Source: an uncultured Pelagibacteraceae bacterium (lineage in GTDB: Bacteria > Pseudomonadota > Alphaproteobacteria > Pelagibacterales > Pelagibacteraceae). From it: a DNA stretch of 64,000 bases. The stretch covers positions 248,001 to 312,000 of the forward strand of contig CACGJO010000001.1 in the NCBI GenBank assembly GCA_902573425.1, in the 5' to 3' direction. The notes beneath the pieces were generated by a model that was not told the origin of the DNA, ran no database searches, and was given only the letters and a program-made list of their open reading frames with translations. Of the stretch, positions 36,747 to 40,711 are shown piece after piece (within the stretch, counting starts at the first letter, position 1; the number at the start of each line of letters is the position of its first letter). The translations under genes and the position numbers were made by a program.

Positions 36747-37042
36747 TGGTGAGATCGGAGATAATTTCAAAATTATCTAAAAGAATTCATCATAAGCTTA
36801 AAAGAAAAGATCTCGAAAATATTTTTCAAATTATACTAGACACCATTATTCAAGGAATTGAGAATAATAAAAGTACAGAACTAAGAGATTTTGGTAGGTT
36901 CTCTGTAAAAGAATTAAAAGATAAAATTGCAATAAATCCGCGCACAGGTGATAAATTTAGATCTTCTAAAAAAAAATCTGTATCTTTCAAGATGTCTGCG
37001 GAGTTAAGAAAAAGAGTAAACGAAGATAGGGTAAAAAATTGA
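36746..37042 (+). CDS. ihfB: Integration host factor beta subunit
   Basis: This DNA-bending protein of the HU/IHF family has 98 residues. The helical dimer core is followed by the beta-arm motif INPRTGDKFRSS and the C-terminal SVSFKMSAELRKRVN. The position right after rpsA is the usual place for ihfB and separates it from HU. The stop TGA overlaps the TTG start of pyrF. Confidence 0.94.
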   Translation: MVRSEIISKLSKRIHHKLKRKDLENIFQIILDTIIQGIENNKSTELRDFGRFSVKELKDKIAINPRTGDKFRSSKKKSVSFKMSAELRKRVNEDRVKN

Positions 37043-37695
37043 AAAAGAATATTTTTGTAGCTTTAGATTTCTCAAATTTCGAGAAAGCTTTAGATGTTGC
37101 AAATCAAGTAAAAAATGATGCTGCTGGGCTAAAAATCACCAATGAATTATTTGCCATTTGTGGAAAAGAAGGACTAAAAAAACTTGCAGGATTTGGTCTT
37201 GAAATATTTTTAGATTTAAAGATTCATGACGTTCCGAATACAGTTAAGAAAACTGTTGCGAGTATCGCTTCATTAAAAACCACGAAATATTTAACGGTTC
37301 ACACCAGTGGAGGTTTGAATATGCTTATGGCAGCAAAGGAGGCTTCGGGAAATTTAGAATTGTTAGGTGTAACAGTACTGACCTCTCAATCTGCATCTCA
37401 AGAACAGGTTAAACATTTAGCAGACCTGGGTATAAAATCTGGGCTTAGTGGTATAGTTGCCTCAGCACAGGAATATTCATCTCTAAGGTCTTTGTCAAAA
37501 AACTTAAAGATTTTTTGTCCTGGAATTCGAGGTCTTGAAGATAAAAAAGATGACCAAAAAAGAGTTATGAGTTACTCAGAGTTTTATAAAATTTCAAAAA
37601 ATGATGATAAAGCATTTACAGTAATAGGAAGACCAATCTATGAAAGTGGAGATGCTAGTCAAAACATTAAAAAAATTATACAGTCAGCTAAATAA
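37039..37695 (+). CDS. pyrF: Orotidine 5'-phosphate decarboxylase, TTG start
   Basis: PyrF decarboxylates OMP to UMP. The 218-residue TIM barrel has FVALDF at its start, the catalytic FLDLKIHDVPNTV (about residue 57), VTVLTS, the CPGIR loop and FTVIGRPIYES. The start codon is TTG, and it overlaps the ihfB stop (TTGA). This is the only position matching the family N-terminus and suggests low, coupled initiation. trpF, often the next gene in alphaproteobacteria, is missing here. Confidence 0.93.
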   Translation: MKKNIFVALDFSNFEKALDVANQVKNDAAGLKITNELFAICGKEGLKKLAGFGLEIFLDLKIHDVPNTVKKTVASIASLKTTKYLTVHTSGGLNMLMAAKEASGNLELLGVTVLTSQSASQEQVKHLADLGIKSGLSGIVASAQEYSSLRSLSKNLKIFCPGIRGLEDKKDDQKRVMSYSEFYKISKNDDKAFTVIGRPIYESGDASQNIKKIIQSAK

Positions 37696-37716
37696 TAATA
37701 TAAACACATTTTAATA

Positions 37717-38952
37717 ATGAAAGTTAAAAAAGGGATACCCTTAATTGATCAACACGATAAAAATGGTTTCTACGGTGGAAAATTTGGTGGTAACTACGTA
37801 GCTGAGACATTGAAAAAACCTATAGATGATTTATCAGAATTATTCGAGAAATGCAGAAAAGATAAAAAGTTTCTAAAAGAAAGAGATGATTTATATGAAA
37901 ATTATGTTGGATCACCTACAAGGTTTTTCAAATTACAAAATCTTACAGATCATTTAGGTGGTGCGCAGATTTATGCAAAAATGGTTTCAGATGCCAATGG
38001 AGGGGCCCATAAAATCTATAACGCTATTACGCACGCGATGTTGTGCAAAAAAGCAAAAAAAAAGTATATTTGCACAGACACTGGGGCTGGTTATAACGGA
38101 AAAATGTTTTCTATGGTCGCAAAGAAATTTGGTCTTGGATGTAAGGTCTTCATGGGAACTAGAGATATCGAAAGACAAAAACCAAACTGCGATGCAATAA
38201 GAAAAAATGGTGCAGAGATCGTTCCGGTTACTTCGGGTAGTAAAACTTTAGTAGATGCTGTTAGTGAATGTATAAGATATTGGGTATCAAATTGCGACAA
38301 AGTTCATATGGGTATTGGTAGTTTAGTGGGCCCAAATATATTTGTTAAAATTTGTGGGTGGAGTACAGCGCAAATTTCCAGAGAATTAAAAGTCCAATTA
38401 GAAGATGAGTTTGGGGAAATTCCAAACAAATTAAAATTAATTAATTGTGTTGGCGGGGGATCAAGCGCATATGGTTTTTGGAGCGAGTTTTTTGATTATA
38501 ATAAAAAACACATAGAACTTATTGGTGTCGAGGCCGGTGGACCAAAAAATAGTAAACTTCATGCTGCACCTTTGAGCAAAAATTCAAAAATTGGAATTCT
38601 TCATGGAGCAGCAGCTTATTGTGTGCAAGACAATGATGGACAAATAAGTGAGACAGAAAGTTGTTCGAGCGGACTAGATTATCCGTCATGTTCACCGATA
38701 CATTGTTTTTTAAAAGACGTTGGAAGAGCAAGGTATACTGTTGCAACCGATGAAGAGGCTTTTTCTGCATATAAACTTGTTACTGAACTTGAGGAAATTT
38801 CCCCAAGCTTAGAACCTGCACATTCTTTTGCTGAGGCAATTAAAATTGCTCCAAAACTCGATGAGTCAAATATTATAATAGTTAATAGTTGTGGAGATAG
38901 TCTTAAAGACAAGGATATTATAAAAAAACGTCTAGGTAACTATATAAGATGA
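37717..38952 (+). CDS. trpB: Tryptophan synthase beta chain-like protein with altered active site
   Basis: The 411-residue protein aligns over its full length with TrpB, including the PLP lysine in GGAHK and DIERQ, TSGSKTL, NCVGGGSSAYG, GVEAGG and GLDYPS. Using Salmonella numbering counted from these anchors, catalytic Glu109 is Asp (DTGAG), Gln114-His115 are Tyr-Asn, Lys167 is Val (TLVDA) and Ser377 is probably Cys (NSCGD). The REDLNHT block before GAHK is also replaced. TrpB normally makes tryptophan from indole and serine; these changes may alter the reaction or its coupling. trpA follows with a 4-base overlap. Confidence 0.85.
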   Translation: MKVKKGIPLIDQHDKNGFYGGKFGGNYVAETLKKPIDDLSELFEKCRKDKKFLKERDDLYENYVGSPTRFFKLQNLTDHLGGAQIYAKMVSDANGGAHKIYNAITHAMLCKKAKKKYICTDTGAGYNGKMFSMVAKKFGLGCKVFMGTRDIERQKPNCDAIRKNGAEIVPVTSGSKTLVDAVSECIRYWVSNCDKVHMGIGSLVGPNIFVKICGWSTAQISRELKVQLEDEFGEIPNKLKLINCVGGGSSAYGFWSEFFDYNKKHIELIGVEAGGPKNSKLHAAPLSKNSKIGILHGAAAYCVQDNDGQISETESCSSGLDYPSCSPIHCFLKDVGRARYTVATDEEAFSAYKLVTELEEISPSLEPAHSFAEAIKIAPKLDESNIIIVNSCGDSLKDKDIIKKRLGNYIR

Positions 38953-39749
38953 AGTCTCAAATTAGTTTAGCTTTTGAAAAATGTAAAAGAGAAAATAGGC
39001 CTGCTCTATTAACCTATACCGTTGCGGGTGATAATTCCAAAAAAAAGTCATTAGAAATTTTAAAATCTATATCCCAACATGCAGATATTTTAGAGATCGG
39101 TTTTCCTTTTAATGCACCAACTGCAGATGGTCCACAAATTCAAAACAGTACTTACAGAGCCTTAAAGAATGGATTTAAGCTTAAAGATGCTTTTCAAATT
39201 GTCAAAAATTACAAAAAAATGAGAAATGCAAAACCCTGTATTCTTATGGGATATTATCAAATGGTTTATCATTATGGAGAAAAAAAGTTTATAAAAAAAT
39301 GTAAACAAGTAGGTGTCAATGGTTTGATAATTGTAGATCTTCCTTGGCCAGATAATAAAAAATTTTCAAAATTATGCAAAAAAAATTCAATTACTTTTGT
39401 TCAACTTATATCGCCTACAACATCAAAAGAAAGAATGAAAAAAATTATTAGAGATTCTCACGATCTAAATTATTTGATAAGTATGTTATCAACCACGGGA
39501 GGAAAATTAAAAGTTTCTCCAAAGAGAATTTTAAAAAATTATTTCAAAATTAAAAGAATCAATAAATCAAAAAATATGGTAATTGGATTTGGTATCACTA
39601 ATAAAACCATTGGTACTTTAAAAAAAGCTGATGGTTTAGTAGTCGGAAGCGCATTGTGCAAAGGAATTAGCGATTCTATTAAAAATCGTCAAAATCCTGT
39701 CATAAAATTAAATAAAATGGTAGAAGTTTTGAAAAATAAAATTATATGA
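38949..39749 (+). CDS. trpA: Tryptophan synthase alpha chain, diverged loops
   Basis: TrpA cleaves indole-3-glycerol phosphate and passes indole to TrpB. The 266-residue barrel keeps catalytic Glu49 (EIGFPF) and Asp60 (ADGP), a tyrosine at the position of Tyr175 (NYLIS), TTG in loop 6 and VVGSA at the phosphate site. Position 56, normally the Asp that salt-bridges to TrpB Lys167, is Ala (FNAPTADG). The usual PDLP reads VDLP. The catalytic residues argue it is active, while the inter-subunit contact looks rebuilt. It overlaps trpB and accD by four bases each. Confidence 0.88.
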   Translation: MKSQISLAFEKCKRENRPALLTYTVAGDNSKKKSLEILKSISQHADILEIGFPFNAPTADGPQIQNSTYRALKNGFKLKDAFQIVKNYKKMRNAKPCILMGYYQMVYHYGEKKFIKKCKQVGVNGLIIVDLPWPDNKKFSKLCKKNSITFVQLISPTTSKERMKKIIRDSHDLNYLISMLSTTGGKLKVSPKRILKNYFKIKRINKSKNMVIGFGITNKTIGTLKKADGLVVGSALCKGISDSIKNRQNPVIKLNKMVEVLKNKII

Positions 39750-40711
39750 ATTGGATAAAAGATAAAATTAAAAAGTTTGGTGACTCATTAAAAAAATACA
39801 CCAGAAGAAGACCTTCTAAAAATGAGCAAGAAAATGCGGATTGGATAAACTGTCCATCATGCAAAAAATTGCAATATAAAAAAGATTTAGAGGGCTTACA
39901 TTTTATATGCTCTTGTAACTATCACTTTGATTATCCAGCTAAACTAAGGCTAAAAAATTTATTTGATAATTCTTTTTATGAAGAAATTCCGTGTCCACCA
40001 GCAGACTCTGATCCATTAAATTTTAAAATAAATAATAAACCATACATCTCAAAAAGAAAAAAATATGAAGAAGCTACAGGACTTGACTCCGCGTTTGCAT
40101 GCGCTTCAGGTAAAATAAATGGTTTAACAGCTGTAGTAGTCTGTTCTGAGTGGAAATTTGGTGGTAGCGCAATGACACCAAAAGAGAGTGAACATTTTAT
40201 TTCAGCAGCTGTAAAAGCAATTGAAATTAAAGCTGATATTTTTATTTCTATTTTGCAAAGTGGAGGTATGGCTGTAACTGGTGGTACAGTTGCGCTGGCT
40301 GCAGGTATGACGAAGACGACCATAGCTTACGCTGAATTAAAGAAAGCAGGAATTTTAACAATTGGTGTAGCTTGTTCTAAATTAAGTGGAGGAACTTATG
40401 TTATGTGGAATAATCATGATATTTTATGTGTTGAGTCACCCGGTTCACATGACATTTTATTTAGTGGAAAAAGAGTTACTGCAAATCTTAAATCTGGCGA
40501 ACAATTGCCTGAAGATTTTGGACAAGGATCGTCACTTGAAGCTTTGGTTGATATAATTTTTTCAAGTAGATTAGAAATTAAAGATGGTATTATAAAAATT
40601 GCAAGAGTCTTGTTGAAAAAACCAAAAATTAAATCTATAGCTGATAGTCCAAGTGAAACTATAGATGAGAGCATCGAAAAAACTTTATCAGAAACTTCAA
40701 AAGCAGTATAG
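39746..40711 (+). CDS. accD: Acetyl-CoA carboxylase carboxyltransferase beta subunit, diverged
   Basis: AccD is the partner of AccA in malonyl-CoA synthesis. The 321-residue protein has the expected N-terminus (WIKDKIKKFG), zinc ribbon and crotonase-like fold. The zinc site is CPSC (36-39) then CSC (55-57), a CxC in place of the usual CxxC. Hallmarks also differ: SGGARMQE reads SGGMAVTG, and the GFAGPRV block reads LFSGKRV. The oxyanion glycines remain. The order trpB-trpA-accD-folC is the standard alphaproteobacterial context. AccA elsewhere in the window is orthodox in its core. Confidence 0.87.
   Translation: MNWIKDKIKKFGDSLKKYTRRRPSKNEQENADWINCPSCKKLQYKKDLEGLHFICSCNYHFDYPAKLRLKNLFDNSFYEEIPCPPADSDPLNFKINNKPYISKRKKYEEATGLDSAFACASGKINGLTAVVVCSEWKFGGSAMTPKESEHFISAAVKAIEIKADIFISILQSGGMAVTGGTVALAAGMTKTTIAYAELKKAGILTIGVACSKLSGGTYVMWNNHDILCVESPGSHDILFSGKRVTANLKSGEQLPEDFGQGSSLEALVDIIFSSRLEIKDGIIKIARVLLKKPKIKSIADSPSETIDESIEKTLSETSKAV

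Follow-up and report, generated by a model that had tools for sequence, protein, structure and literature searches.

A predicted SAR11-wide tryptophan synthase with altered active-site residues and without the classic inter-subunit salt bridge, at a locus of apparent trpBA exchange

Tryptophan synthase serves in textbooks to illustrate substrate channelling and allostery between subunits, and a trpB-trpA pair that lacks both ends of the salt bridge between its subunits and has altered catalytic residues in its beta chain raises two questions: is it still a tryptophan synthase, and how are its chains coupled? We analysed such a pair from an uncultured Pelagibacteraceae bacterium of the SAR11 group, in a stretch of 64,000 nucleotides of forward strand (the window, to which all coordinates below refer), and compared it with its counterparts across the order.

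Both genes are intact, lie on the forward strand and overlap by 4 bases. On the basis of an intact frame, family models and predicted structure, trpB (37717..38952) encodes a SAR11 type-1 beta chain of 411 aa, while trpA (38949..39749) encodes an alpha chain of 266 aa that passes the curated trpA cut-off (205 bits vs. 102). The best single-function family for the window TrpB is TIGR00263, the trpB equivalog, against which it scores 363.3 bits, just under the cut-off of 392. TrpB2/TrpB-like proteins (TIGR01415) belong to the same superfamily, but the window TrpB scores far lower there (94.7 bits; cut-off 518.85) and is paired with trpA. The structure predicted for it has a confident pLDDT of 94.7, and comparison with solved TrpB chains gives a TM of about 0.9 or above; by this match, and by its grouping with canonical TrpBs in the tree, the protein is a TrpB in fold and descent. 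The left neighbour is pyrF (37039..37695, forward strand) and the right neighbour is accD (39746..40711, forward strand), itself strongly diverged.

Residues were numbered as in Salmonella, using alignments to solved TrpB and TrpA chains together with 196 distinct TrpB and 206 distinct TrpA sequences; the alignment was unambiguous around every residue cited. A sequence-only reading of the window, made by counting from conserved anchors, had proposed most of the substitutions, and the alignments bear these out: TrpB Lys167 is Val (window V179; 38251..38253, forward strand), TrpA Asp56 is Ala (39114..39116, forward strand), so that the paired loss of the bridge is real, TrpB Glu109 is Asp (D121; 38077..38079, forward strand), Gln114-His115 is Tyr-Asn (Y126-N127; 38092..38097, forward strand), and the block before GAHK is replaced. 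Further changes not listed in that reading are PHPYP (194-198) to P-N-I-F-V, Asn236 to Ser (S250) and GRGDKD to GDSLKD; TrpA Gly181 is also replaced, by Ser. Retained in TrpB are the PLP lysine Lys87 in (G)AHK (K99; 38011..38013, forward strand), the GGGS phosphate loop, Arg141 and Asp305, and in TrpA the catalytic acids Glu49 and Asp60, as first read, as well as Thr183 and Gly184. Cys in place of TrpB Ser377 (C392) was read correctly, but as a special change it falls away, since 29 of 31 canonical alphaproteobacterial TrpBs also have Cys377. Glu109, Lys167 and alpha Asp56, on the other hand, occur together in all 31 canonical alphaproteobacterial pairs compared, so the changes in the window lie far beyond chance.

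When the pair is set against its SAR11 relatives, these residues prove to be fixed at the sequence level across the group rather than special to the window genome. Position 109 is Asp in 146/146 TrpBs of types 1, 2 and 3 (Glu in 31/31 canonical sequences), position 167 is Val or Ile in the same 146, and all of them carry the closure pair Arg141-Asp305. Among named relatives the nearest are single-cell genomes of Pelagibacteraceae, for example AG-430-A02. The window type is spread over SAR11, Fonsibacter and HIMB058 among them, and some match to the window TrpB is found in 373 of the 398 genomes of the order. The pair thus appears, by sequence, to be a SAR11-wide tryptophan synthase and not peculiar to one genome. 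Loss of trpBA was considered for the 30 genomes with no TrpA or TrpB match; 26 of these also have no accD match, and an assembly gap is likelier, since the accD model finds even the diverged accD of the window. A weak second TrpB match (27-28% identity, in frames of 458-475 aa) was seen in some SAR11 genomes (G031, C1:93165-94199; G045, C8:29760-30794; G035, C10:36043-37077), possibly a TrpB-like or another PLP enzyme. In a TrpB tree, three deep non-canonical lineages of SAR11 TrpBA stand beside the canonical one, namely types 1/2/3 as one clade, type 4 and type 5 (support 100/100 for each), with mean TrpB identities of 25-35% between them.

Several lines of evidence bear on what the type-1 pair does in the cell. 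The window genome, 79.5% complete, also has trpE-trpG-trpD-trpC, on another contig, and a search for a second, canonical trpB (blastp, HMM) found no further TrpB- or TrpA-like frame in approximately 0.99 Mb of the assembly. Closed genomes that we take to be those of HTCC1062, HTCC7211 and HIMB114 carry the full residue signature, and a genome that is presumably IMCC9063 also has a trpBA pair. At an E-value of 0.001 the presumed HTCC7211 genome yields one TrpB match only, and in the presumed HTCC1062 genome there is a second, weak one outside the 0.8 Mb read. Artificial seawater supplied with pyruvate, glycine, a reduced sulfur source and vitamins supports growth of both HTCC1062 and HTCC7211, tryptophan not being among the listed additions (PMC5069961; PMC8437039). 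A 2008 survey (Kagan et al.) places SAR11 TrpB in a separate, divergent cluster of trpB_1 and argues that the HTCC1062 protein is functional because it is the only copy there (PMC2395257). Retention of trpEGDC, a sole trpBA and growth of strains of the same type with no added tryptophan together indicate that the cell's tryptophan is made by the type-1 pair; that 146 TrpBs strictly conserve the altered residues also counts in favour of a working enzyme. We therefore predict, from genome content and strain growth, that the window pair very probably functions as the tryptophan synthase of this SAR11 bacterium.

Several points weigh against this prediction. In the Salmonella enzyme, indole activation is held to depend essentially on Glu109, and substitutions at Gln114 destabilise the closed state and impair the enzyme (PMC9512447). 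In addition, trpF, which in SAR11 usually lies between pyrF and trpB, is absent both from this place and from the whole genome in 31/31 genomes of the window's genus, so that the pathway there needs another isomerase. In the window the usual trpF site corresponds to 37696-37716; the genus retains both trpEGDC and trpBA. One of the loci (L306) has a HisA frame, and HisA could have taken over the trpF step in this genus. The second TrpB match of the presumed HTCC1062 genome and the incompleteness of the window genome count on the same side.

The changes in the serine-carboxylate and indole sites (109, 114, 115, 194-198) and a TrpB score below the curated cut-off would also suit recruitment of TrpAB to a different amino acid, through another nucleophile or glycerol-phosphate substrate, with tryptophan coming from uptake or another enzyme. 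Such a switch would leave little reason for the retained trpEGDC or for Glu49 and Asp60 in TrpA, and it sits poorly with the presumed HTCC7211, whose single TrpB match accompanies growth with no added tryptophan; we consider it very improbable. The suggestion in the sequence-only reading that TrpB might perform another beta-replacement finds no support for the same reasons, together with the want of any other trpB or trpA in the approximately 0.99 Mb of assembly searched, and as the main job of TrpB it is unlikely.

As a tryptophan synthase, the enzyme would work as follows. TrpA would cleave indole-glycerol phosphate to indole, which would be passed on to TrpB, where Lys87-PLP would convert serine to the aminoacrylate. 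Indole attack would be assisted by Asp109, which has one carbon fewer than Glu109, in a pocket that appears rebuilt at positions 82-90, 114-115 and 194-198. With Arg141 and Asp305 retained, a pair that stabilises the closed state of the Salmonella enzyme (PMC9512447), closure of the beta domain probably still occurs.

How the two chains communicate is a separate matter, on which the covariation of beta-167 and alpha-56 bears. Among 190 loci with both chains, which are related sequences and not 190 independent events, the two positions are perfectly linked, with 31 Lys/Asp pairs, 11 Lys/Glu pairs, 148 uncharged pairs (aliphatic beta-167 with alpha-56 Thr, Ala or Cys) and no mixed states. The bridge is kept as Lys-Glu in type 4, but Asp305 is absent from its 11 sequences; types 1, 2, 3 and 5 have lost the bridge and kept Asp305. 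The tree requires two changes for the Lys167 losses, and we do not claim two independent losses, as a single clade is not rejected by the AU test (p 0.35). In the Salmonella enzyme, changes at alpha Asp56 lower TrpA activity within the complex (PMC6608616). In the window pair (Val/Ala), an uncharged contact would have taken the place of both ends of the Lys167-Asp56 salt bridge together, and subunit communication would be weaker or rerouted.

The joint disappearance of both bridge ends could also be taken to mean that the subunits are fully uncoupled, TrpB being free-standing and TrpA a free, indole-releasing lyase. Against this, the two genes always occur together, the types of the two chains correspond everywhere outside the type-1/2/3 clade, and the Arg141-Asp305 closure pair is kept in types 1-3; constant pairing and matching types suggest that the chains still fit each other, and full uncoupling is in our judgement unlikely. 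Of the two terms in the original description, 'uncoupled or re-wired', the latter is thus a fair reading, given the paired loss and the changed active site. Alpha-beta coupling in the window enzyme may be lost, but would more probably be weaker or carried by other contacts.

The pair also occupies a locus at which the deep TrpBA lineages appear to be interchangeable. In the loci read, pyrF, or pyrF and trpF, lies upstream of trpBA and accD downstream, whatever the type. The clearest case is the relative G013, whose DNA matches one flank of the window block over 4.7 kb at 94.3% identity and the opposite flank over 2.6 kb at 90.0% (blastn), whereas the proteins share only 28% (TrpB) and 32% (TrpA) identity with their window counterparts; blastn breakpoints and binned identity delimit the exchangeable block to 37686..39745, in effect exactly trpBA. 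The converse is seen in L086 and L091, with TrpBs 93% and 85% like that of the window next to pyrF at 63% and 35%. Many of these genomes are draft single-cell assemblies, and chimeric contigs could in principle place different TrpBA versions at one locus. Chimerism would have to account for the match of G013 to the window on both sides of the block, for TrpBs that remain 85-93% alike beside such divergent pyrF, and for the recurrence of type 5 in several genomes of three genera and of type 4 in a closed genome; an assembly artefact is accordingly extremely improbable. From these comparisons, the deep TrpBA lineages are read as replacing one another in place, as a two-gene block that would be exchanged horizontally at a fixed locus. 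Because trpC is present with every type, in most genomes of each type examined, all of them are likely to act in one and the same pathway.

One genome of the order (G039, locus L036) has a fully canonical trpF-trpB-trpA at this position. The closed genome with type 4 TrpBA, which carries Lys167 and alpha Glu56 (L282, G071), is one that we take to be HIMB5, and a cultured strain may thus be available for this type. Viral carriage was considered and set aside: no relatives of types 1-3, 4 or 5 were found in viral contigs, and phage records hold only TrpBs of less than 40% identity.

The neighbouring accD varies as well. Against its model the window AccD reaches 115 bits (cut-off 317), and the canonical AccD motif SGGARMQE is replaced in it by QSGGMAVTGG. 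In a comparison that took in window positions 39746-40711 and, among other loci, L005, L009, L016 and L282, the accD genes found here in SAR11 form at least 10 groups at 55% identity linkage, combined with different TrpBA types. Diversity of accD beside diversity of trpBA suggests a shared cause. A speculative possibility, to which we give limited credence, is that the trpBA-accD locus keeps essential enzymes diverse, with deep active-site versions of TrpBA repeatedly exchanged as a block and AccD exchanged separately. The driver would possibly be diffusible inhibitors or other marine enemies that target conserved active sites. If this were true, the odd residues of the window pair would represent selected alternative chemistry and coupling rather than drift.

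The concept of in-place xenologous gene displacement describes a gene that is replaced by a distant homologue while gene order is unchanged; the SAR11 case differs in that it is recurrent, draws on several deep lineages of two interacting proteins and adjoins an accD that varies too. With the canonical TrpB1/TrpA enzymes of Salmonella and Pyrococcus, to which it is about 40% identical, the window pair shares the fold, PLP lysine, GGGS loop, Arg141-Asp305, gene pairing and alpha Glu49, Asp60 and the loop-6 threonine Thr183; it differs from them in Asp109, Tyr114, Asn115, Val167, the rebuilt PHPYP and GRGDKD motifs and alpha Ala56. The divergence of SAR11 TrpB as a cluster has been known since 2008, and the trpB_1 cluster described then is the one to which the window TrpB belongs; by contrast, the passages of that survey consulted contain no residue account, linked salt-bridge loss, other deep types or in-place exchange (PMC2395257). 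A partial literature search turned up no earlier description of the changes at residue level, of the linked bridge ends or of the swapping of deeply different TrpBA blocks at one locus.

Taken at face value, an abundant ocean group would possess a natural and evidently working enzyme that has dispensed with Glu109, held to be essential for indole activation, and with both ends of the classic coupling salt bridge. The natural variants, including the Lys-Glu version, offer ready material on the roles of Glu109 and of the coupling bridge, and their in-place exchange raises the question of what selects for active-site diversity in essential genes.
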